Shown: piece by piece, positions 7,394-26,845 of the stretch
Position numbering within the stretch: the stretch's first letter is position 1
Layout of the letters: the number at the start of each line of letters is the position of its first letter
Assembly (NCBI GenBank): GCA_018333995.1
Contig: JAGXSG010000007.1
Span: forward strand, 1-64,000
Length of the DNA stretch: 64,000 bases
Source of the DNA: Clostridiales bacterium
GTDB taxonomy: Bacteria; Actinomycetota; Coriobacteriia; Anaerosomatales; SLCP01
Direction of reading: 5' to 3'
The notes under the pieces: model-generated
Told to the model about the DNA's origin: nothing
What the model saw: only the letters and a program-made list of their open reading frames with translations
Database searches by the model: none
Made by a program: the position numbers and the translations under genes

Positions 7394-10372
7394 ATGGAAT
7401 TCAAGTTTGATGCTCACCAGGAGTTCCAGCAGGACGCAATCGCTGCCGTGGTCGATCTGTTTGAGGGTCAGCTGGCCGACGCCGCATCGTTGTCGACGAA
7501 GCTCCAGGGCGCGGTTCCCGACGCTGGCGATCAGATGATCGCCTTTGACATGGTTAGCGAAGTTGGCGCGGTTGGGAACAACCTGCTGCTCGACGACGCG
7601 ACAATACTGCAGAACCTGCAGACCGTGCAGGATCGAAACGGCCTCGAGGTAGTGAGCGAGCTGGCTGGGGGTTCGCTGGACTTTGACATCGAGATGGAGA
7701 CCGGCACCGGCAAGACGTATGTGTATCTGCGTACCATCTTCGAGCTGGCCAAGAACTACAGCTTCACCAAGTTCATCATCCTCGTGCCGAGCGTGGCCAT
7801 CCGTGAGGGCGTGACCACCAGTATCAAGCTAATGACTAAGCACTTCCAAGATCTCTACGCCACGCCGTTCGACTCGTTCGTCTACAGCGGCAGCACGCCG
7901 GAAGAAGTGCAGTCGTTCGCCACTTCCACGAGCGTGCAGATCATGGTCATGACCATCGACTCGTTGCGGGGCGACAAGAACACCCGCGTCATCCACCAGA
8001 CTCGTGACAAGCTTAACGGGCTGCGCCCAATTGACTATCTGAAGGCCACACATCCAGTGGTCATTATGGACGAGCCACAGAACATGGAGTCGTTGCTTAG
8101 CCAGTCTGCAGTGGGTGAGCTGAATCCGCTTTGCACCCTGCGCTACTCGGCAACCCATCGCAAGACGCGCAACGTCGTCTATCGCCTCGACCCGGTTGAC
8201 GCCCACGATCTCGGCTTGGTCAAGCAGATTGTGGTGGCGGAGGCGCTGCAGCAGGGCGCCGATGCAGCACCGTATGTGAAGCTCCAGTCAGTTCGTAATG
8301 ACAAAGGCTTTCTAGCATGTATGGAACTGGCGGTGCGCAAAGCATCGGACGGCACAATCCAGCGGAAGACGGTGTACGTCAAAAACGGCCAAGACCTCGC
8401 TCTGGTCACTGACAACTCTGCCTATGAGGGTTGGTTGGTCAACGAGTTGAGTATCGAACCCGAGTCAGTCGAGCTGTTCCCGCACGGGTGGCTTCAGGCA
8501 GGTGAGACCATCGGCGGCTCCAACGATTCCATTTACCGCGAGATGATCCGTGAGACCATCCGTGAGCATCTGCGTAAGGAGACGATGCTACGACCTCACG
8601 GGATCAAGGTGCTGAGCTTGTTCTTTGTCGACAAGGTCGCAAGTTTCCTTGGAGAGGGCTACAACAACGACACTGCTGACGGGCAGTTCGTCACTTGGTT
8701 CGACGAGCTGTTCATCGAGGAGCGCTCCAGGAGTCAGCAATGGTCGCAATCACTGCCTCTTGATCCAGTCGATTACCGGCGCGCCTACTTCTCGGCCATT
8801 AGGGGGAGGAAGGGTCAGCACGATACCTTTAAGGACACAACCGGCACATCGAAGGCTGATGATGACGCCTACGATTTGATAATGCGTGACAAAGCACGAC
8901 TCCTCGACGAGAACGAGCCGGTGCGATTCATCTTCAGCCACTCGGCGCTGCGTGAAGGCTGGGACAATCCGAACGTCTTTCAGATCTGTGCTCTACGTGA
9001 GATGGGCGAAGCGACGGAGCGTCGCCAAACGATCGGACGCGGACTGCGGCTGCCGGTCAGCCAGGCAGGAGAGCGGGTACCAGACAAGGGCATCGCTCAA
9101 CTCACCGTCGTTGCGAATGAGTCCTATCGAGAATTCGCCGATAGCTTACAGAAGGAGTATCGGGACTCCGGCGTCAGTATCGGCCTGGTGCGCCCTGGTG
9201 AGTTCGCGAAGATCCCGACAATCGACGAAGTTACCGGCGACGAGAAACGGCTCGGCTTCCAGGGCTCCAAACTGATCTGGGACGAACTGGTCGAACGCAG
9301 CTTCATTGACAAGGAAGGCAGAGTCACCGCCAACTTCCGTCCCGAGACACTCGGGTTCACACTTGGCCCGGTGCCGGAGTTCTTCTGGCCCCAAGACGAC
9401 ATAATCGATGTGATGCTCAACTGTCGCATCGAGCGCATAGTCAAGACTCGGCGCGAGCGTGTCGCTCGCAAGCTCAACAAGGAGATCTACTCAACGCCGT
9501 GGTTCGAGGACTTTTGGCGCACGATTTCGCAGAAGACCACCTATCGAGTGGCCCTTAATCGTGAGGAAGTCATCGACAACGCAGTCAACAGAATCAAGGC
9601 TGAGCAGCCCATCTTGCCGCTTCGAGTTCAGGTCACCCGTGCAGGCGTAAAGCTGGTGCGGGGCGGCACCAAGACCTCCGAGACTGCAACTCGTTCTGCT
9701 GAGCTGACTGGCGCCTATCAACTTCCCGACATCCTCAGCGAGCTGCAGGAAGCTACATCCCTTACGCGTCGGACCTTGATTGACGTGTTGACGCGCTCTG
9801 GCAAGCTGAGCGAGTTTATCGGCAATCCCAATGACTTCATTGCAATGGTGAAGCGAAACCTCCAGAACGTGGTGGCCGCTGCCGTTCAGGAAGGCATTCA
9901 GTACGAGAAGATCGGCGGCTACGTCTACGAGTTGCGTGAACTGCAGGCCGATGGTGCTGAGGCACGTGACCTCTTTCTCGATCGCGTCTACAAGGTCGAG
10001 AACACCGGCAAGACCGACTTCGACTACATCCAGATCGACTCAGACGGTGCGGACGCCCCTGAGCGCCAGTTCGCGGAGAAGCTGGACTCACGTGAAGACG
10101 TCAAGTTCTTCATGAAGCTGCCCGACAAGTTCAAGATCGACACGCCCGTCGGGCCGTACAACCCAGACTGGGCAATCATCAAGCAGGATGAGGATGGCGT
10201 GGATCGCATCTACATGATCCGCGAGACCAAGAGCACGCTGGATGAGTCCAAGCGTCGCCCGACTGAGAACGCCAAGATCAAAGCCGCGACTGAGCACTTC
10301 AAGCAGCTGGGCATCGGCACTGATACCGTCCCGGGCTACGCTGTCAGCGTCCCTGGCAATTGGAGCTTGTAA
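7394..10372 (+). CDS. Type III-like restriction subunit (Res), helicase plus PD-(D/E)XK nuclease
   Basis: 992 residues. Superfamily 2 helicase motifs are present: Walker A TGTGKT (103-108), DEPQ in place of DEAD/DEAH (226-229, characteristic of Res subunits), SATHR, and the later ERRQTIGRGLRLP motif VI. The C terminus carries an apparently intact PD-(D/E)XK nuclease: P924-D925 in YNPDW and E944-T-K946 in MIRETKS. Start ATG at 7394 lies 2 bp after mod. The stop overlaps the next start as TAATG. Function: ATP-driven communication between methylation sites and double-strand cleavage with Mod. No truncation or motif loss seen. Confidence 0.93.
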   Translation: MEFKFDAHQEFQQDAIAAVVDLFEGQLADAASLSTKLQGAVPDAGDQMIAFDMVSEVGAVGNNLLLDDATILQNLQTVQDRNGLEVVSELAGGSLDFDIEMETGTGKTYVYLRTIFELAKNYSFTKFIILVPSVAIREGVTTSIKLMTKHFQDLYATPFDSFVYSGSTPEEVQSFATSTSVQIMVMTIDSLRGDKNTRVIHQTRDKLNGLRPIDYLKATHPVVIMDEPQNMESLLSQSAVGELNPLCTLRYSATHRKTRNVVYRLDPVDAHDLGLVKQIVVAEALQQGADAAPYVKLQSVRNDKGFLACMELAVRKASDGTIQRKTVYVKNGQDLALVTDNSAYEGWLVNELSIEPESVELFPHGWLQAGETIGGSNDSIYREMIRETIREHLRKETMLRPHGIKVLSLFFVDKVASFLGEGYNNDTADGQFVTWFDELFIEERSRSQQWSQSLPLDPVDYRRAYFSAIRGRKGQHDTFKDTTGTSKADDDAYDLIMRDKARLLDENEPVRFIFSHSALREGWDNPNVFQICALREMGEATERRQTIGRGLRLPVSQAGERVPDKGIAQLTVVANESYREFADSLQKEYRDSGVSIGLVRPGEFAKIPTIDEVTGDEKRLGFQGSKLIWDELVERSFIDKEGRVTANFRPETLGFTLGPVPEFFWPQDDIIDVMLNCRIERIVKTRRERVARKLNKEIYSTPWFEDFWRTISQKTTYRVALNREEVIDNAVNRIKAEQPILPLRVQVTRAGVKLVRGGTKTSETATRSAELTGAYQLPDILSELQEATSLTRRTLIDVLTRSGKLSEFIGNPNDFIAMVKRNLQNVVAAAVQEGIQYEKIGGYVYELRELQADGAEARDLFLDRVYKVENTGKTDFDYIQIDSDGADAPERQFAEKLDSREDVKFFMKLPDKFKIDTPVGPYNPDWAIIKQDEDGVDRIYMIRETKSTLDESKRRPTENAKIKAATEHFKQLGIGTDTVPGYAVSVPGNWSL

Positions 10373-12057
10373 TGCGCGCAGTAGAGGTCCAGATTCACAA
10401 CTTCCGGAGCGTCCACGACGCGACGATTCGCCTTGAGCCACTCTCGCTAATCGCGGGAGCCAACAATGCAGGCAAGAGCAACATCATAGATGCCATCCGG
10501 CTGTTCTATGGGGACCTGAAGTGGGATGAGGGACGTGATGCCCCGAAGGTAGAGGCGAGCGATTCAGAAGCATGGGTTGAGATCGAGTTTCAGCCGACTG
10601 CGGATGAGCTCGCGCAACTGAAGGATGATTACAGGAGTGCAGAAGGCACCTTCCGCGTCCGGAACTACGTCAGCCCCTCGAGCGGAGCAGATGGCAAGGT
10701 TCGCGCGGGGTACTACGCCTACGAAGACGACAAGTTGTCCGACAACTTGTTCTACGGTGCGAAGAATGTGGGGTCTGGCAAGGTCGGACACATCGTCTAC
10801 ATTCCCGCTGTCAGCAAGGTCGATGACAACACAAAGCTCACCGGCCCTTCTGCGCTACGAGAACTCGTAGCGGAGGTTCTCAACAAGGTGGTCGCCGACA
10901 GCCCCGCATACCTAGAGCTTACCAAGGCGTTCGGCGCCTTTGAAGGCTCGATTAGGACGCAGACCTGTGCTGACGGGCAGTCGCTTAAGTCTCTTGAGAA
11001 GGAAGTAACCGACGAGATTGCTAATTGGGAAGCGTCTTTTTCGCTTGCAGTTCAGAACATTCAGCCGGAGGAGATCCTGAAGACACTCATTAAGCCGCAG
11101 TTCATCGACGAGACGCACGGCGGGGAGATAGATCAGGCGCGTTTTGGTGCGGGTTTTCAGCGTCACCTCATTTACACACTGATCAAACTCGCGGCGAAGC
11201 ATGCCAATCCACCTAGGACATCGGCCGGTGAGAAGAAGGAGTTCGCGCCTCAGCTCACGTGGATTCTGTTCGAGGAACCCGAGGCCTTCCTGCACCCCTC
11301 CCAGGAAGAGGTGTTGCACGACAGCCTACTGAAACTCGTTCAGGACGGCACTACACAGGTCTTGTTAACGACGCATAGCTCACGTTTCGTTAGCCGCTCG
11401 ATGGACGACCTGACTCGACTAGTCCGACTATGCCGCGACGCTGGTATCACTACGGCCCACCAGTTGTCGCAGGCTGAACTCGACAAGCTGTTCGACGACC
11501 TCCTCGTCGTTGATGACAGCATTACGCCGATCGGCACGACATCGGCGGATGTCAACAAGGCTGCGATGATGGCGTCCCTTAAGACTGAGCTATGGATGCA
11601 GGCAACACGTACGATAGCCTTCTTCAGTCAGCGAGTGATCCTTGTCGAAGGTGCTAGTGAGACGGCGTTATACAGTTACTTGACGACCCGGGGTCTAATG
11701 GACCCGCCTTTGAGAGGCCTTTCTGTCATCGACTGCATGGGTAAGTTCAACATCCATCGTTTCGTCGCGATTCTCGGCGCATTTGGCATCGACCACTCGG
11801 TCCTCTACGACGGGGACAACGGCGGTTCGCATGATTCCGAGGTAACCGCGGCGATTGATGGGGCGAAGTCGGCGTTCACCAAGAGGATCACTCGGTTCCC
11901 GAGCGACTTGGAGTCGGAGCTTGGGATCACCCCACTCCCCCGAAACGAGTCGCATCGCAAGCCGCAGTACATCCTCTATCACCTGGAGTCAGGGCTGGTG
12001 GATGCGTCAAAGATCGACGCGATAAAGCAGGAGTTCTGCGACCTCGCTACGGCGTGA
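10372..12057 (+). CDS. OLD-like AAA ATPase with TOPRIM domain
   Basis: 561 residues from ATG at 10372, which overlaps the res stop (TAATG) and follows GGAG; TTG at 10360 would add four residues. The ABC-type ATPase half has Walker [10 protein letters not shown] (29-37) and a Walker B-like [12 protein letters not shown], then LLTTHSS. The C-terminal half has TOPRIM acidic residues: VEGASE (425-430) and DGD (480-482). This is the architecture of OLD-family nucleases, which occur alone, with GajB-type helicases, or as accessory genes in restriction loci. Here it likely adds a nuclease or DNA-end sensor to the Type III core. Which OLD class it belongs to was not resolved. Confidence 0.85.
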
Positions 12058-12088
12058 TGAATTTAGGTCTGAAAGGAGGCCAGTTACT

Positions 12089-13300
12089 ATGCACGAGATC
12101 AAATGCCCGCATTGTGGCAAGACATTCAACGTTGATGAGGCCGGTTATGCGGACATCTTGAAACAGGTGCGCGACGAAGCCTTCGACAAGGCGCTGCACG
12201 ACCGGTTGGTGCTTGCCGAGCAAGACAAGAAGACGGCGATCGAACTCGCGCAGACCAAGGTCGCCAGCGAGATGGAGAGGAAAGCCGCCAAGAAGGATGC
12301 CGAGAAGGACACCGAGATCGCTCGGCTTAAAGCAGAGCTCGAGAAGGCAGATGTCGCCAATCAGCTCGCGCTGAAGGAAGCGCTCAGTACGGTCGAGAAG
12401 GAGCGCGACGATCTCAAGCGAGATCTTGACTCGAAGGACACTGAGAGAAAGCTGCTCGAATCGTCGCTCAAAGACAAGTACGAAACCCAGATCAAGGATC
12501 GCGACGATGCCATCGAGCGCCTGAAGGACCTCAAGGCCAAGTTGTCCACCAAGTTGGTCGGCGAGACCCTAGAGCAACACTGTGAAACCGAGTTCAACAA
12601 GATCCGCGCTACTGCTTTCCCTCGCGCCTATTTTGAGAAGGACAATGACGCCCGCAGCGGTAGCAAGGGCGACTACATATTCCGTGACTCCGACGAAGCA
12701 TGCACCGAATGTGTGTCGATCATGTTCGAGATGAAGAACGAGTGCGACACCACCGCAACCAAGAAGAAGAACGAGGACTTCTTCAAAGAACTCGACAAGG
12801 ACCGCATCGAGAAGGGCTGCGAGTACGCCGTACTCGTTTCTTTGCTGGAGCCGGACAACGAGCTCTACAACACGGGCATCGTGGACGTGTCTCACCGGTA
12901 TCCGAAGATGTACGTCATCCGACCACAGTTCTTTATTCCGATGATCACTCTGCTTCGTAACGCTTCTCAGAACGCACTGAAATACAAGACCGAGCTGGCG
13001 CTCGTGAAGGCGCAGAACATCGACATTACGAATTTCGAGGACGACCTGGAAACCATCAAGACAGGCTTTGCCCGTAACTATGACTTGGCGTCCCGAAAGT
13101 TTGGGACTGCCATCGCTGAGATTGACAAGACGATCAAGAGTCTTGAGAAGACGAAGGCCGAACTACTTGGCTCCGAGAACAACCTCCGTCTGGCCAACAA
13201 CAAACTGCAAGACGTGACGATCAAGAAGCTGACACGCGGCAACCCGACCATGGCGGCGAAGTTCGCAGAGCTGGAGAAGGCGGACTCTAGGGACGATTAG
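12089..13300 (+). CDS. DUF2130-like protein, predicted PD-(D/E)XK nuclease
   Basis: 403 residues, ATG behind a strong AAGGAGG (12073-12079). An N-terminal CPHCG zinc-ribbon-like half-motif (C6, C9) is followed by a Lys/Glu/Asp-rich coiled coil (about 40-160). A globular domain then shows D195 in SKGDYIFR and E214-M-K216 in FEMKNE, a D...ExK pattern expected of PD-(D/E)XK nucleases. The C-terminal 120 residues are again helical. The layout matches what I recall of DUF2130. The gap after the OLD-like gene is 31 bp, so it is probably part of the operon. The nuclease activity is inferred from the motif alone. Confidence 0.75.
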
Positions 13301-14437: not shown

Positions 14438-16975
14438 GTGACGCGACAGTACGATCCGCATGCGATAGAGACCAAGTGGCAGGAGACATGGGAGCGTGAC
14501 CGGCTCTACTCGGTAAACGAGGACCCCTCCCGGCCCGCCTACTACGTGCTCGAGATGTTCCCGTACCCTTCAGGCGACATCCACATGGGTCACGTTCGCA
14601 ACTACACCATCGGCGACGTCATCGCACGCCACCTCACCATGCGCGGCATGCAGGTACTCCACCCCATCGGCTGGGACGCGTTCGGGCTTCCCGCCGAGAA
14701 CGCCGCGATCAAGAGCGCGACACATCCTGCCGAGTGGACGTACGCCAACATCGCCAAGCAGGCCGCCTCGTTCAAGCGGATGGGATTTAGCTACGACTGG
14801 GACCGCACGGTCGTCACGTGCGACGAGGAGTACTATCGCTGGGGCCAGTGGATCCTTCTGAAGTTCTGGGAGCGCGGGCTCGTCGAGCGCAAGTCGAGCC
14901 CGGTCAACTGGTGTCCGAGCTGCGCGACCGTGCTCGCCAACGAGCAGGTCATCGGCGACGGCGTGTGCTGGCGATGCAAGAGCCACGTCGAGAAGCGCGA
15001 GCTCGAGCAGTGGTACCTCAAGATTACCGAGTATGCTCAGGAGCTCCTCGACGACCTCGACACGCTTCCCGGCTGGCCCGAGCGCGTCAAGACGATGCAG
15101 GCCAACTGGATCGGGCGTTCCGAGGGCGCCGAGGTCGATTTCGTGCTCTGCGACGCGGCCGGCGAGCCGTCCGGCGATACGATCACCGTGTTCACGACGC
15201 GCCCCGACACGCTCTTCGGGTGCACGTTCTTCCTGCTCGCGCCGGAGCACCCGCTCGTGCACGAGATCGTTCACGGCACGGAGTTCGCGCCTGAAGTGAT
15301 GCGGGTTGTCGAGAGCGCTTCGCGGGCGAGCGCGGTCGAGCGCGCCGCTGGCGAGCGTGAGAAGATCGGCGCGTTCACCGGGCGCTACGTCGTCAACCCC
15401 GTCAACGGGGAGAAGGTCCCCGTGTGGGTGGCGGACTACGTGCTCATGGAGTACGGCACTGGTGCCGTGATGGCCGTTCCCTGCGGTGACCAGCGCGATT
15501 TTGAGTTCGCCCGCCAGTACGGGCTGCCGATCCCGCCGGTGGTCGTCGCGGAGGACGATCCGCTTGCCGCGAAACTCGCTGACGCGCAAGAGCGAGTGCT
15601 CGATGACGTGACCTGGGAGTGCGCCTACGACGGCCCTGGCATTATGGTGCAGTCTGGTCCATTCACGGGCATGCGCACCGGAAAGGGCGGTATCGGTGTC
15701 GCGGCGGTCACGCGCTGGCTTGAGGATCATGGCCACGGCCGGTACGCGATCAACTTCCGTCTTCGCGACTGGCTTATCAGCCGACAGCGCTATTGGGGTA
15801 ACCCGATTCCCGCCGTCCACTGTCCGGCGTGCGGTCTCGTGCCGGTCCCCGAGAGCGACCTGCCGGTGCGCCTGCCGGACGACGTCGACATCACCAAGGG
15901 TGAGACACTTGCGGACAAACCCGACTTCTACGAGACAAAGTGCCCGGCGTGCGGCGGGGCCGCTCGGCGTGAGACAGATACCATGGACACGTTCACCTGC
16001 TCGTCGTGGTATTACCTGCGCTACTGCGACGCCCGCAACTCACAGGCGATATGGGACCGGGAAAAAGCCGAGCACTGGATGCCTGTCGACCAGTACATCG
16101 GCGGTATTGAACACGCGATCTTGCACCTGCTCTACTCCCGCTTCTTCACGAAAGTCTTGCGCGATGCGGGCTTGCTGAACTTCTCGGAGCCGTTTACCAA
16201 CCTGCTCACTCAAGGGATGGTTCGCAAAGACGGCGAGGTGATGAGCAAGTCCAAGGGCAACGTCGTCGCTCCCGAGGAGATGATCGCCGAGTACGGCGCC
16301 GACACGCTGCGCGCCTACATCCTGTTCATGGCGCCACCTGACAAAGATCTTGAGTGGTCCTTCGAGGGGCTTGACGGCATGTATCGCTGGCTTGGTCGCG
16401 TGTGGAGGTTCGTGACTGAGGCTGCCGAGGAGTCCTCGGCAGGTGACGTCGGCGGCGAGATCGCGCTCGACGGCCCGGCGGCCAAGACGCTCCACCGTGA
16501 GATGCACCGCGTGATCGGCAAGGTCACCGACGACATTGGACGCTTCAGTCTCAACACCGCCATCGCCGCGATGATGGAGCTCACCAACGCCGCGTACGAC
16601 TATCGCAACGCGGTGGAGCCAGGAATGCGCGATGCCGCGCTCACGCGTGCGGTTGCGGAGAACATGACGCGCCTGCTCGCTCCGTACGTTCCGCACATGG
16701 CCGAAGAGCTGTGGCGCGATGTGCTGGGACACGACACCTCGGTCCACAGGGAGGCGTGGCCAAAGTACGATCCAGCGGCGGCGGCCCTCGATGAGGTCGA
16801 GCTCGCGGTGCAGGTCAACGGCAAGATCCGGGGACGTGTCATCGTGTCCGCAGACGCCCCGGATGATGAGGTTCGTGAGGCGGCGCTCATCGAGGCGGAG
16901 GCGCATGTCGCCGGGAAGGAAGTCGTCAAGGTGCTGATTGTCCCGGGCAGGCTCGTGAGCATCGTCGTGCGTTAG
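14438..16975 (+). CDS. leuS: leucyl-tRNA synthetase
   Basis: 845 residues, a normal length. Charges tRNA-Leu in the cytoplasm. Class I signatures: [15 protein letters not shown] with HMGH at 49-52, and MSKSK at 602-606. Between them lie a zinc-like Cys cluster (CPSC...CWRC, about 165-190) and the editing (CP1) domain with TTRPDTLFG. The GTG start follows CAGGAGG (14424-14430). It stands alone, with its own promoter and a 160-bp gap after it. Confidence 0.97.
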
Positions 16976-17136
16976 GTGTTGGCGACGGGAGTTTTTACTC
17001 TCTGACCAGCAGGTATATCTCTGGTAAGACCCGGTTAGACCCGCCGTGGTGTACTTCGTCCGCGACGTGAGCGGGGTGTGTTTGCCTCTGTGCGACCGTC
17101 GCGAATCTGCTGGTCGTCACGGGGGGAGTGGTACGT

Positions 17137-19065
17137 ATGTCTGGAAAAGCTCATGGTTGGGGCGCACGTCGCGGTCGGACGGGGTGGAGGCGCTCAGGGT
17201 TTCGCTGTGTTGGAAGCGCACTCTGCGTGATTGCGCTCGCGACGGGGACGTCGGGGGTGTTGGCACAGAGTGCCCGTGGTGATGATGCGAGCCACCACGA
17301 GTACTCGGTGCTCTACGGGGGGAACTTCTCACCGTCGGATGCGCACAGGTTCGCGTTTCGACTTCACTATTTCGGCGGGACTGGGATCTGGACCGGCAAG
17401 ACGCAGACGTCGTACGACGCGCCGCAAGACGATGTCGCCCACTGGGACGTGACTAACGGCTATTCCGGAGTGGACAGATGGCCGGGGGCAAACCGGCGTG
17501 ACCTCATGTACCTGTCAACTCATGGATGGCCGGGGCAACTGCGCTTCTACTCGCCGAGATGGGTCGGCAGCACGCGGGACAACTCGGATTGGCGCAGACG
17601 TCTCGATCAGAATGGACACAACGACAACATCGGGCCGCGGGACAACGACCTGTGCGGAAGCAACACGTTTGGCTGGGAGCGCAACCTGTGGGAGATCGGA
17701 GCGACGTATCCCGGCTGGTCGGTGACGCGAACCAACAGCCGCTGGAACGATGACATCGAGTGGGTGTTCCTCGCCGCGTGCAATCAGCTGTCCGCAGGCG
17801 GCAACTCTCCGGGCTCCCGGGCGCTCTACGCGCGCACCCTTCTCGGAGACCCGCGACGGGCGCACTCTATCATGGGCTACCAGGCCACGGCTCCTGGTGA
17901 CGCGACTGACGTAGGGATCGTGGACAGCTTTTTCGATCAGGTCGCGCTCGGCAACTCGATTCGGTACTCATGGCTTCAAGCCAACTCTTACTTCTCGGGC
18001 AGCGCCAAGAACGCGGCTGTTCTCCTTCACGAACGCCATACCTACGAAGGACTGCCTCCGGTGAGGGCTCGCCAGGCCGATTCACCCACCGGCGAGATTG
18101 TCGACATGCGCTTCTGGTACCTGAACCTGCTTGGCAACCACATCGGCGGACCGCACCTCGGGTCGAACGAATCGCTTTGGTCGAGAGGGGTTGCAGCGCT
18201 GAGAGAAGCGTTCGCGATTCCCAAGGCGATGGCAAATTCGGAAACAAGGTTGATTCAAGGACGTAACACCACATTTCGGGTTGGCACAGAGTTCCCGAAA
18301 GCACCGAATGGAGTTTCCCCCTTGGTTTTGAAGTCTGACCGCCCGGAACCTGAGGAAGTGGCCCGCCGCACTCTTGGTGGAGGAAGAGCGGTTGCTGGCG
18401 CACTCGGTCAGACAAAGGGGTCCCGATTGTTCGAGCGGGACGGAAAGCGTCTGATGGTTTTCGAGGGTGATGGTTTTCTGTTAGACAACGGTGAGGAGTA
18501 CGGAAACGCCGTGGTTGACTTCACAGTTCACGAGGCCGTGGAGGCCGCAAAGCGCTATATCGGCGATCACGGAGGTCTCCCCGCCGATGCGGTTCTCAAC
18601 GGGGTTACTGGCGTGGCTGCCGCGTCAGTCGATCCACTTACGGGGAAGCTCACAGACGAGAAGACGCACGCCTACATCGTCGAGTACGGCCACGAGCATG
18701 CGGGGATTCCCATCGCTGGCACCGAGGGCGATTCGATCCGGATCGTGTTGGCGGCGGGAAAGCGCGTGTGCGAGATGCGAACCACCTGGCGTGAGGTGTC
18801 TCACAGCGGCCGCCCGGTACAGCTCATCGATGCGGAAGCGGCATTCGAAGCGGTCGCCCGTGAAGGTGAGCGGGTCACCGGACTTCCTCCTGTTGTTGAG
18901 GTTCAGAGGGCTCGGTTGGTCTACTACGCCAACAAGTCAAGCAGCCGCCAAAGCGTGATGTGGCCCGCGTGGGAGTTCACGCTCGTTGAAGAAGGCGCCG
19001 AGAGCGGTGCGATGCCGGCTGTCGTGTATGTCGATGCGCAGTCGGGCAGGGTGGTGACCGACTGA
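17137..19065 (+). CDS. secreted DUF6345-like protein with possible caspase-like His/Cys pair
   Basis: 642 residues from ATG at 17137 behind a G-rich ribosome-binding site. An Arg-rich start and hydrophobic segment ending near VLAQS suggest an export signal. Residues 60-330 include LMYLSTHGWPGQL (H129-G130) and WVFLAACNQLS (C215), each at the end of a predicted beta strand. This spacing resembles the catalytic His-Gly/Ala-Cys arrangement of caspase or gingipain-like peptidases and of DUF6345-type proteins. The C-terminal 200 residues look like PepSY-type repeats ending in VVYVDAQSGRVV. The next gene starts in the stop codon (TGATG) and encodes a lipoprotein, so the two may work together outside the cell. 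Substrate unknown; the peptidase idea is inference. Confidence 0.65.
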   Translation: MSGKAHGWGARRGRTGWRRSGFRCVGSALCVIALATGTSGVLAQSARGDDASHHEYSVLYGGNFSPSDAHRFAFRLHYFGGTGIWTGKTQTSYDAPQDDVAHWDVTNGYSGVDRWPGANRRDLMYLSTHGWPGQLRFYSPRWVGSTRDNSDWRRRLDQNGHNDNIGPRDNDLCGSNTFGWERNLWEIGATYPGWSVTRTNSRWNDDIEWVFLAACNQLSAGGNSPGSRALYARTLLGDPRRAHSIMGYQATAPGDATDVGIVDSFFDQVALGNSIRYSWLQANSYFSGSAKNAAVLLHERHTYEGLPPVRARQADSPTGEIVDMRFWYLNLLGNHIGGPHLGSNESLWSRGVAALREAFAIPKAMANSETRLIQGRNTTFRVGTEFPKAPNGVSPLVLKSDRPEPEEVARRTLGGGRAVAGALGQTKGSRLFERDGKRLMVFEGDGFLLDNGEEYGNAVVDFTVHEAVEAAKRYIGDHGGLPADAVLNGVTGVAAASVDPLTGKLTDEKTHAYIVEYGHEHAGIPIAGTEGDSIRIVLAAGKRVCEMRTTWREVSHSGRPVQLIDAEAAFEAVAREGERVTGLPPVVEVQRARLVYYANKSSSRQSVMWPAWEFTLVEEGAESGAMPAVVYVDAQSGRVVTD

Positions 19066-20408
19066 TGCCGCGATCGATGTCGGTTTGCGCGTTGTTGATG
19101 ACCGGAGTAGTGCTGTCCGTAGCGTTGTCGACAGCCGCCGGCTGCCGTTCAGCCGGGGGATTGAGCGTCATGGTGAGCGCAGAGAGCACGGGTACACACG
19201 TGGGCGCCGTAGAGATGGACGGGGGACCGCTCGTGTGGGCCGGCAAATCGCTCTACTCGTACACGAACGGGTCGCTCGTGGAGTCCGTGGGATTTTCAGC
19301 TGATTACTCCGCCGACGGGATCGGGTTCGGTGATTCAGTGGGTCCGGTATCGACGGGGGTCACACAACTCGGTGACGGGCGCCTGGTATTGGTCCGCACC
19401 GTCATCGACAGTGACCCCGAGGCAGGTCAGGAATCGCGCGGCTGGTACCACGAGGTTGTGGCCGCCCGGGTTGGCGACTCATCGGTAGAGACGGAGATCC
19501 TGTTCGCGTGTGCGGAAGTTCTCCGGTTTGGAGCGGTATCAGACGGTCCGAGTGTGAACGTGGCGTGCGTGGTCAACGACCCAGAGACAGATGAGGTATG
19601 GCTCGCGGGAGGCGTGCCCAATCCGGAAGGAGAGGGAGTCGATCATTGGGAACACCGGGTCGCAGGCAGGCCACAGGCGTGGGCGGTGTCCAAAGCGGGA
19701 TCGGGCGCTGTCGCGGTTGTGGGATTGTCGCCGGAGTCGCTCGAGCCGGTTTTGAGTATCACAGATGGGGACGGAACCAATGTGCGTACAGTAACTCTCG
19801 GCAACGGGCTGAAAAGGCCTGCGCGGATGTTTTCCATTCGTATGCCGGAAGGCGACGCTTGGCTAATCGAATGGTGGGAGGATGCCGGGACACGGCACAC
19901 TCTTACCACGTCCGACGGCAAGACCACTGAGGTGACGGACATACTAGCCGCCAACCCTCACGGCCAAGTGATCGCCGTTGGTGATGTGGTACCTGAATCC
20001 CCAGGGGATGAGGTGGTGCTGAACCACGGAAGTGCAGACGGTGAGTCGCGACGGACTGTGGTGGCAACAGTAAGTGATGGCGCTTTTCGCGAACTGTTCG
20101 AGCTGTCTTCAAGTTCAGTGAGCGCCGCCCAGTTCGCCGACATCAACGGTGACGGCCTTCTTGACGTTGTGTGTGTGGAGGGGGTTGCCGCTCCACAGCA
20201 GTTCAGCCATCGCAGCATCGAGCGAATGGGCGTCTGGCTCTGGAACGGATCAGGTTTTGATCCTCCAAGATACTCGGGTGACTACGATGCGGGTGTGGCG
20301 TCATTTGACAGCGTGGATATCGATGGTGATGGACGACTTGAGCTGATCGTGGGCTACGACGACTTGAGCGTGGAGCGCGCTCGAGTCGACATCTTGCGCG
20401 TCAACTAG
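19065..20408 (+). CDS. lipoprotein with C-terminal FG-GAP-like repeats
   Basis: 447 residues. The N terminus has a hydrophobic stretch ending in the lipobox STAAGC, so it is predicted to be lipid-anchored on the outer face of the membrane. The body is beta-rich, and the C terminus has two calcium-type FG-GAP motifs (FADINGDGLLDVV and SVDIDGDGRLELIVGYDD), suggesting a beta-propeller. It overlaps the upstream secreted protein gene by one base, indicating a shared transcript. Binding partner unknown. Confidence 0.7.
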   Translation: MPRSMSVCALLMTGVVLSVALSTAAGCRSAGGLSVMVSAESTGTHVGAVEMDGGPLVWAGKSLYSYTNGSLVESVGFSADYSADGIGFGDSVGPVSTGVTQLGDGRLVLVRTVIDSDPEAGQESRGWYHEVVAARVGDSSVETEILFACAEVLRFGAVSDGPSVNVACVVNDPETDEVWLAGGVPNPEGEGVDHWEHRVAGRPQAWAVSKAGSGAVAVVGLSPESLEPVLSITDGDGTNVRTVTLGNGLKRPARMFSIRMPEGDAWLIEWWEDAGTRHTLTTSDGKTTEVTDILAANPHGQVIAVGDVVPESPGDEVVLNHGSADGESRRTVVATVSDGAFRELFELSSSSVSAAQFADINGDGLLDVVCVEGVAAPQQFSHRSIERMGVWLWNGSGFDPPRYSGDYDAGVASFDSVDIDGDGRLELIVGYDDLSVERARVDILRVN

Positions 20409-25076: not shown

Positions 25077-25388
25077 GGATTCCTCCAGCTCAGTTTATCC
25101 GGCCCTTCCGGCTTGCGCCAAGCATGTCGCGGCTCTCGCGTACCTATGGAAGACCCTGAAACAACCCCGACCTCTACGCGAAAACTGGTATGCGAGTGAT
25201 TGCTCAGCCTTGGCGGCGGCCACCCTGTCTAACCCGCGCTTCTCGACGCGCAGGAGCGTTCGGCCGCTTCGCGGTGTAAGCTGGTGGCGCGCAGCTTATG
25301 CGCAAATCGTTGACCGACAGGCCACCGGCATGCGGGCTCGATGGCAAGGCCGGGTTTCCAGCGGGTACCATGTTGGTGGAGGATCGCC
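25077..25388. other. gap with no recognisable gene
   Basis: About 310 bp between the rpsT promoter and the MNT gene. Open frames here look like chance and none has a ribosome-binding site and family signal. The last bases hold the GGAGG of the MNT gene (25378-25382). The region marks the left edge of the small accessory patch. Confidence 0.5.
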
Positions 25389-25697
25389 ATGGTTGCTGTG
25401 ATCGAAGACAGAATGGATGCGATACGCAAGGCGTGTGAGCGTTTCCACGTGGTACGCCTCGATGTCTTCGGCTCGGTGCTGCGTGACGACTTCGAGCCTG
25501 GACGAAGTGATATTGATTTCCTGGTCGATTTCGGTTCCATGTCGCCCTACGACAAGCCGGATGCATACTTCGGCCTGCTGGACGAACTGCGCGCCATCCT
25601 CGGAACTGATGTCGATCTCGTGATGGTTGGCGCGCTCAAGAACCGCTACATCCGCGACGATGTCAATCGGACGAAACAGCAGCTCTATGCAGCGTGA
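25389..25697 (+). CDS. MNT-type nucleotidyltransferase, antitoxin of a HEPN-MNT pair
   Basis: 102 residues, ATG after GGAGG. The minimal nucleotidyltransferase motif is intact: GSVLRDDFEPGRSDIDFLVDF contains G28-S29 and the catalytic pair D41/D43. MNT proteins neutralise HEPN toxins, in studied cases by AMP transfer onto the toxin. The downstream HEPN gene overlaps it by 11 bases but is frameshifted, so the pair is probably inactive as a toxin system or the antitoxin is now an orphan. Confidence 0.85.
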   Translation: MVAVIEDRMDAIRKACERFHVVRLDVFGSVLRDDFEPGRSDIDFLVDFGSMSPYDKPDAYFGLLDELRAILGTDVDLVMVGALKNRYIRDDVNRTKQQLYAA

Positions 25698-26039
25698 GCC
25701 GCGCGCATACCTTGCCGATATCCTGGAGTCGTGCGACGCGATTGATGCTGCGGTCGTTGGCATGCGGATCTCGGACTATCTCGCGAACAGACTCGTTCGA
25801 TCCTCCGTGGAGCGCGAGTTCACGATCATCGGGAAGCGGTGCTAGCTCTGTCACACAAAGCGCCAGAAGTCTTCGCTTCGATCACGGGCGCACGGCGGAT
25901 CGTCGACTTCCGGAATCGCCTGACACATGAGTATCCGACCGTCGATGACGAGCTAGTGTGGGGACTTGCGAAGGTTGATTTGCAGGTTCTCAGAGGCGAG
26001 TGCGAAGCGCTGATTTCGCAGTTCGACTCTGCGGACTAG
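25687..26039 (+). pseudogene. HEPN-domain (DUF86-like) toxin gene, frameshifted
   Basis: The first frame reads MQREPRAYLADILESCDAI through to FTIIG and then stops at 25843-25845. The remainder continues in another frame as ALSHKAPEVFASITGARR and includes FRNRLTHEYP, the HEPN RNase motif (R, N and H). Adding one G to the GGG run at 25831-25833 would restore IIGEAVLALS, a natural join. The break is therefore a one-base deletion or a sequencing error. Restored length is about 117 residues, normal for DUF86. Confidence 0.8.
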
Positions 26040-26199
26040 CAAGCAGTTCGTGCCGACTTGATGGCAACACCTACGACGAAGTCATGGCGCGGTTCCACCA
26101 GCAACTGCTGACGGCCACAAGGTTGACTGTGGAAGAGGGGCGCATCCGTTGTGGCAGATGCCTAAGGGCGTTAGATTCAGCGGCACATCCATTACGCGC

Positions 26200-26233
26200 T
26201 TGCACGGTTGCCGTGATAGTGGGTATACTCACT
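26200..26233 (+). promoter_or_regulatory. promoter and dyad operator of the HigBA-like pair
   Basis: TTGCAC (26200-26205) and TATACT (26224-26229) are separated by 18 bp. The -10 lies inside the near-palindrome AGTGGGTATACTCACT (26218-26233), with one mismatched pair around a GTATAC core. HigA-type antitoxins usually repress their own promoter, so this is a reasonable operator. Confidence 0.55.
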
Positions 26234-26252
26234 CCGTGACCAGGGAGGCCCA

Positions 26253-26546
26253 TTGATCGTCTCGTTCGGCGACCGCGCGACAGAGGACCTGTACCATGGC
26301 CGGTCCACCAGCGGGGCGCGTCGGTTTCCAAACGACATCGTGAACCTTGCCTTGGTCAAGCTGGATATGCTCAACGGTGCCGCGGCGGTACTCGATCTGA
26401 AGTCGCCACCCGGCAATCGGTTGGAGGCGCTCAAGGGCGACCTGAAGGGTTTCCACTCGATCAGGGTGAACGACCAATGGCGGATCGTGTTCAGTTGGCA
26501 GAACAACGGCGCTCACGACGTCCGGCTGATGGACTATCACAAGTAG
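26253..26546 (+). CDS. higB: HigB-like (RelE superfamily) toxin
   Basis: 97 residues. TTG at 26253 follows AGGGAGG. The pattern LDLKSPPGNRLEALKGDLKGFHSIRVNDQWRIVFSW matches HigB-type mRNA interferases that cut transcripts on the ribosome. Toxin-first order and a 12-bp gap to the antitoxin gene are typical of higBA. No truncation seen. Confidence 0.88.
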   Translation: MIVSFGDRATEDLYHGRSTSGARRFPNDIVNLALVKLDMLNGAAAVLDLKSPPGNRLEALKGDLKGFHSIRVNDQWRIVFSWQNNGAHDVRLMDYHK

Positions 26547-26557
26547 GAGGCGTGACC

Positions 26558-26845
26558 ATGATTCCGGAAAACCGCATACCCACTCATCCCGGCGTGATTT
26601 TGAGCCAGGAGTTTCTCGCCCCGCTCGGTATCACCCAGGTCGCCTTCGCCGCGCACCTGGGTGTTCCCGTCCAGCGCATCAACGAGTTGATTCGCGGCAA
26701 GCGGGGTGTGACGCCGGAGACGGCGTGGCTGCTCTCTGAGGCGCTCAACACGACTCCGGAGTTCTGGATCAACCTGCAAACGGCACATGATTTGGCACGC
26801 AGTCGCCCGTCGGAGCCGTTGAAGCCGCTCGCCGCAATCGCGTGA
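26558..26845 (+). CDS. higA: HigA-like antitoxin with HTH domain
   Basis: 95 residues from ATG at 26558, 7 nt after TAGGAGG; GTG at 26552 is possible. A helix-turn-helix (ITQVAFAAHLGVPVQRINELIRGKRGVTPETAWLLSEAL, about 25-65) is followed by TTPEFWINLQTAHDLA, both standard for HigA/VapI-type antitoxins. It should bind HigB and repress the promoter at 26200-26229. Confidence 0.9.
   Translation: MIPENRIPTHPGVILSQEFLAPLGITQVAFAAHLGVPVQRINELIRGKRGVTPETAWLLSEALNTTPEFWINLQTAHDLARSRPSEPLKPLAAIA

Follow-up and report, generated by a model that had tools for sequence, protein, structure and literature searches.

A DUF6345 protein with predicted caspase-type and PepSY-like halves and a conserved His/Cys pair, encoded beside a lipoprotein-like FG-GAP protein

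Introduction

Prokaryotic caspase homologues and clostripain-type (C11) peptidases are already well known. The gingipains RgpB and Kgp (C25) carry HG and AC-type motifs, and the CHAT protein of SAVED-CHAT is a cytoplasmic, nucleotide-activated effector. Thermolysin-type propeptide domains assist folding and inhibit their enzyme, and domains of the YycI/YpeB type are known from surface proteins as well as from regulatory ones. An excerpt of PMC4357240 places the dyad of the clan CD core at the ends of strands beta3 and beta4, and an excerpt of PMC13393411 describes an interaction of YpeB with SleB that perhaps holds SleB inactive. Here we analyse a gene pair in a window of 64,000 nucleotides (the whole stretch of DNA examined: positions 1 to 64,000, forward strand, of contig JAGXSG010000007.1, assembly GCA_018333995.1) from a Clostridiales bacterium, which is actinobacterial by its GTDB lineage (Actinomycetota; Coriobacteriia; Anaerosomatales). 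Open reading frame 1 (ORF1; 17137-19065, + strand, 642 aa) starts with an ATG at 17137, with an in-frame GTG at 17128. ORF2 (19065-20408, + strand, 447 aa) starts with an ATG that overlaps the ORF1 stop codon (TGATG), so that one base is common to both.

An earlier note on this DNA had read ORF1 as a secreted protein with a possible caspase-like His/Cys pair, coupled to an FG-GAP-like lipoprotein. Neither the membership of ORF1 in Pfam family DUF6345 nor its separate C-terminal half (about residues 370-642), both described below, was part of that note. In the literature searched, no paper names DUF6345 or PF19872, or combines caspase-like, PepSY and FG-GAP.

Results

We modelled ORF1 with AlphaFold2 at full length (mean predicted local distance difference test (pLDDT) 66.7, predicted template modelling score (pTM) 0.71) and as the N-terminal domain only, with 17 alignment rows (pLDDT 57.9, pTM 0.70). 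In the full-length model, a strand (54-60), a helix (67-78) and a second strand (85-91) are followed by strand 123-127 with H129 behind it, strand 209-213 with C215 behind it, and further strand/helix units. The modelled succession, beta-alpha-beta-beta(H)-beta(C), is that of the clan CD core as given in the excerpt of PMC4357240, and the dyad likewise falls where beta3 and beta4 end. H129 (codon 17521-17523) is a candidate general base and C215 (codon 17779-17781) a candidate nucleophile.

Structural comparison of the domain-only model by VIA-align, which re-examines the top 1000 matches of Foldseek and has a trust level of about Z 8, listed 50 matches, and all 50 are clan CD (one row per entry, with many repeats of caspases 3, 6 and 7 and of legumain). 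Among the matches listed, CHAT was best (8tl0; Z 14.2, root-mean-square deviation (rmsd) 3.4, 172 residues aligned), in the company of RgpB (4ief; Z 13.6, rmsd 3.7, 179 aligned), caspase-8 (3h11; Z 12.1, rmsd 3.5, 167 aligned) and Kgp (Z 11.8). Foldseek itself gave this model E 3.2e-6 to 8tl0, a SAVED-CHAT filament, and 3.2e-3 to caspase-8. When the full-length model was used, VIA-align paired approximately residues 52-312 with CHAT (Z 11.3), separase, legumain, caspases and MALT1, flavodoxins reaching at most 5.5. CHAT, MALT1 and GPI transamidase are counted here as clan CD members, which we take them to be. Residues 52-312 (17290-18072) are predicted to adopt a fold of the caspase-haemoglobinase (clan CD) type. 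The earlier note had proposed a caspase-like fold, with His and Cys at strand ends, and had suggested superposition on gingipain or clostripain. The models agree with it and put H129 and C215 directly behind neighbouring core strands; the structural matches include the gingipain RgpB (Z 13.6, domain-only model) and the C11 peptidase iotapain (Z 7.5, full-length model).

We then considered conservation of the two residues, which lie in the motifs STHG (LSTHGW) and LAAC (LAACNQ) exactly where the earlier note had placed them. In a 17-row alignment of DUF6345 domains (A3; window included, identities to ORF1 down to 13%), the Cys is kept in every row (17/17) and the His in all but one (16/17), C215 being one of only two invariant columns. 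The first nine rows, which are ORF1 and eight relatives, have D122, H129, G130, W203, E208, C215 and Y248 among their invariant columns. Strong DUF6345 members such as L029-L031 have the His and the Cys as well. Judged from the alignment, conservation of H129 and C215 is more than chance. Rows L047 and L048 come from one genus, are nearly alike and are not independent. A3 leaves out two proteins that are not DUF6345 (L027, L028), a near copy of L034 (L035) and a record of the same gene as L053 (L037). It also leaves out two large proteins of genome G479 (L036/L039 and L040/L041), in which H and C are visible by eye, frames that open after the His region (L038/L070) or past the Cys region (L071), a deletion form that has lost the Cys (L043), and a broken frame with H and C seen by eye in the upstream frame (L072/L074).

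Family membership was examined by profile searches. The whole protein passes the Pfam cut-off of PF19872 (DUF6345) marginally (27.2 against 26.9 bits), and residues 47-330 alone score 30.8 bits. DUF6345 is the sole Pfam match of ORF1 at E<=1, hence no gingipain C25 model is matched, with the limit that HMMER filters may drop weaker matches. The clostripain model (C11, PF03415) likewise gave no ORF1 match at E<=1, and it matched none of the 69 genomes of the order, the window's own included, at E<=0.001. ORF1 matched nothing in NCBIfam, nor any sequence in the PDB, whether searched as a single sequence or as a profile. By sequence, then, ORF1 is a DUF6345 protein and is placed neither in C11 nor in C25.

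The family has a patchy spread. Counting the window's own genome in each case, the ORF1 protein has a match in 11 of the 396 genomes that represent the class. The DUF6345 model matches 10/396 of the class, 8 of them above cut-off and the remaining two represented by L027 and L028, as well as 11/296 of the phylum (9 above cut-off). A search with alignment A2 found 9/69 genomes of the order and 7/396 of the phylum. Methanosarcina acetivorans was the only control genome matched by the DUF6345 model (1/14). A single-protein scan of genome contigs returned no relative for ORF1 and, for L053, one identical match that is apparently its own source record; a search of plasmids with ORF1 was empty. We rejected the match of the DUF6345 model to a true C11 peptidase, L028 (C11 149.8 bits, DUF6345 18.4 bits), as proof of clan CD ancestry. 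It is noise, because the same model scores 21.8 bits on L027, a pyruvate:ferredoxin oxidoreductase by eye.

The C-terminal half of ORF1 (residues 370-642; 18244-19062) resembles a second group of structures. VIA-align pairs it with YycI (2o3o; Z 11.3, rmsd 4.0, 210 aligned), 5coz (Z 10.5) and the C-terminal domain of YpeB (5boi; Z 10.3), and Foldseek gives E 6.9e-8 to 5coz and 1e-6 to YycI 2o3o. Metallopeptidase propeptides follow at 4k90 (Z 6.5), 3nqy (6.3; the vibriolysin propeptide) and 3nqz (5.9), all below the tool's trust level of about 8. A YycI/YpeB/PepSY-superfamily fold is predicted from the model. Against the Pfam PepSY model, L038 scores 23.0 bits, below the cut-off of 24, one of nine members of alignment A1 is matched (E 0.0052), and ORF1 itself is not matched. 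A home-made hidden Markov model (HMM) of the C-terminal domain recovers the half in L072, L069, L038 and L068, weakly in L034/L035, and in ORF pieces at L051. A possible permuted order in L029, where by eye an accessory domain lies ahead of DUF6345, is not claimed, the HMM having found no match there.

The two halves can also be encoded apart. At L047 (4004-5907) and L048 (1813-3710), from one genus, the DUF6345 domain and the C-terminal half are two adjacent ORFs. The C-terminal ORF has a hydrophobic signal of its own (by eye) and overlaps the DUF6345 ORF by 64 bases when read from its first start, with no overlap from an internal ATG. L050 (6271-7356, genome G064) is a lone lipoprotein-like ORF with the C-terminal half only, in a genome that the DUF6345 alignment does not match. 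Because the half occurs as a separate ORF or alone, these arrangements suggest a unit able to work in trans. As separate observations, G064 and G081, the latter encoding the full-length protein, are of one genus, and the L047 pair lies about 500 bases upstream of leuS, ORF1 in the window lying downstream of that gene.

The downstream gene, ORF2, exceeds the FG-GAP_3 cut-off (39.2 against 26.9 bits, in two stretches). Its C27 (codon 19143-19145), a candidate lipid-attachment cysteine, fits what we take to be a relaxed lipobox (TAAGC); a scan of ORF2 with a strict lipobox pattern found none. The calcium-type repeats reported earlier are DINGDG at residues 359-364 (20139-20156) and DIDGDG at residues 418-423 (20316-20333). 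Each of the two nearest relatives of ORF1 is likewise followed by a lipoprotein-like ORF of similar length: at L042, one of 463 aa (7726-9117) with an 8-base overlap, and at L043, one of 469 aa (7719-9128) 22 bases away. The gene arrangement recurs in the window and these two relatives.

Similarity among the lipoproteins was assessed in small comparisons. Those of L042 and L043 are similar to one another (BLAST 7e-6 one way and 3.9e-4 the other, within a four-sequence set; score reached by 0/300 shuffles). The similarity of ORF2 to the L043 lipoprotein is reached by none of 300 shuffles either. A profile of ORF2 with its homologue L066 (genome G008) aligned with the L042/L043 pair over 110 columns (prob 90.3, E 1.5e-6). 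A phmmer search with ORF2 of 644 ORFs from 14 loci returned nothing at E 0.01, and the FG-GAP matches of the L043 lipoprotein lie below cut-off (21.6 against 22.1; 22.2 against 26.9). The tie of ORF2 to the downstream lipoproteins emerged only in the small pairwise and profile comparisons. The earlier note, citing the TGATG overlap, had coupled ORF1 to a lipoprotein that it took for a putative membrane-tethered beta-propeller. This coupling is backed by gene order at both nearest relatives and by a distant profile relationship, but not by every similarity test. Within the order, two of 69 genomes are matched by ORF2, namely the window's own and G008, where L066 is the lipoprotein alone; neither the ORF1 nor the DUF6345 model matches G008.

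Other features of the window are as follows. Residues 1-46 of ORF1 (17137-17274) contain arginines and then a run of hydrophobic residues, taken by eye for the export signal that had been noted before; the model has a helix at 17-49 of low confidence. The gene pair is flanked by leuS (14438-16975, read by eye) and by comEA/comEC from 20514 onwards (by eye), the comEA candidate having HHH and SLBB domains. Elsewhere in the window, a helicase-like ORF (by eye), an OLD-type AAA ATPase with TOPRIM (10360-12057) and a DUF2130 protein (12089-13300) lie consecutively in 7394-13300, possibly a defence-type island. Within 25341-26845, an ORF with a nucleotidyltransferase domain (25341-25697) precedes what by eye looks like a HigB/HigA-type pair (26253-26546 and 26477-26845).

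Discussion

Cumulatively, these computations support the following: 1) membership of ORF1 in DUF6345; 2) its clan CD-type predicted fold with a conserved dyad; 3) the predicted fold of its C-terminal half; and 4) the pairing of the two genes, which the window shares with two relatives. We lean towards the view that ORF1 is an exported clan CD cysteine peptidase with PepSY-type, propeptide-like control by its C-terminal half and a surface lipoprotein as partner; export, proteolysis, inhibition and lipoprotein contact are the steps that we infer. ORF1 would be exported as a cysteine peptidase of clan CD fold, in which H129, as base, would activate C215 as the nucleophile on the substrate peptide bond. 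The YycI/YpeB/PepSY-like half may inhibit the enzyme intramolecularly in the manner of a propeptide, or assist its folding. ORF2 would sit as a lipoprotein on the outside of the cytoplasmic membrane, where its FG-GAP repeats could hold the enzyme or present substrates.

Several results weigh against this view. No sequence-level tie joins ORF1 to any named peptidase family in Pfam, NCBIfam, PDB sequences or hhalign against C11. In the last comparison, prob was 0.2 for 17 DUF6345 rows set against the 13 C11 domains, equal to that of a negative control with an unrelated lipoprotein profile; it was rejected as evidence of ancestry, though the short alignment pairs Cys with Cys. Both models reach only modest confidence, and between the dyad strands most of residues 130-202 fall below pLDDT 50. 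Foldseek with the full-length model reached clan CD (MALT1) only at E 0.1, just the C-terminal half being matched at E<=0.001, a weak signal that the domain-only model resolved. On the side of the partner, no FG-GAP model matches the L042 lipoprotein or five other lipoprotein-like neighbours (L044 upstream; L046, L048, L049 and L053 downstream). Compared with the L042 lipoprotein alone, ORF2 scores within the range of shuffles (23/300 reach its score). A search of four genomes with the L043 lipoprotein found only its own (1/4), missing the L042 one in G081. As to the dyad, L068 (genome G560) carries Q at the H129 position, and L043 (6611-7696, genome G013) has kept the gene pair yet lacks residues 152-465, Cys included.

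Could the C-terminal half and the lipoprotein be surface-binding modules, for wall or polymer, attached to a constitutively active enzyme rather than inhibitor and partner? FG-GAP repeats serve as binding modules, surface proteins are among those that carry YycI/YpeB-type domains, and the stand-alone L050 would suit such a role. However, metallopeptidase propeptides are among the structural neighbours of the half, though just at Z 5.9-6.5, and it comes after DUF6345 in several relatives and as an adjoining ORF in two of one genus. We regard this alternative as unlikely, if the strongest of those considered.

Slightly less likely, in our judgment, is a protein of clan CD fold that performs no broad proteolysis: it could process a very narrow set of substrates, ligate peptides, or bind as a pseudo-enzyme. 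In favour of this, the structural matches include CHAT (8tl0) and plant asparaginyl peptide ligases, and a dyad residue is lost in L043 and L068. Against it, the His and the Cys rank with the best conserved positions of the domain across very divergent rows, and both losers look damaged. The L068 gene is broken by an in-frame stop, with the signal and first strands ahead of the stop in the same frame, and is likely a pseudogene. L043 retains signal, His region, C-terminal half and an open downstream lipoprotein-like ORF; a search of its locus for the lost part brought up no convincing match (best E 0.13). A Rossmann-like (flavodoxin-like) domain without enzymatic activity, in which H129 and C215 would be structural or metal-binding, is very improbable. 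Flavodoxins do enter the Foldseek list (best E 0.06) and reach VIA-align Z 5.2-5.5, but clan CD rows stand far above them at Z about 11-14, and His and Cys are positioned as in the clan CD dyad.

Extension of the exported-peptidase reading to the family is more tentative. DUF6345 might consist of unrecognised exported clan CD cysteine peptidases, held in check by a fused or separate PepSY/YpeB-type inhibitor on the metallopeptidase principle, and acting at the surface of the cell together with a lipoprotein partner that evolves rapidly. An uncharacterised Pfam family would thereby gain a testable function.

Compared with strong DUF6345 members, ORF1 shares the His and the Cys with a marginal score, but differs in a long stretch of low confidence inserted between its His and Cys strands and in its YycI/YpeB-like C-terminal half. 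It is like the gingipains in predicted fold, apparent export and HG and AC-type motifs, whereas identity is only 8-9%, DUF6345 is its sole Pfam family, its partner is an FG-GAP lipoprotein, and its propeptide-like half is C-terminal, differing from the gingipain propeptide in placement and type. With clostripain it shares the His-Gly and xAC pattern and a predicted clan CD fold (iotapain Z 7.5), but not a PF03415 match, and hhalign with the 13 C11 domains is insignificant. CHAT of SAVED-CHAT is the best structural match among those listed (E 3.2e-6, Z 14.2), whereas ORF1 is apparently exported and has no SAVED match. Residues 370-642 are alike in predicted fold to YycI, YpeB, PepSY and thermolysin-type propeptides; they differ from the PepSY and thermolysin-type propeptides in having no Pfam PepSY match and in being fused to a predicted clan CD domain, not a metallopeptidase. 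A caspase-type enzyme would here be joined to a PepSY-type regulatory domain.

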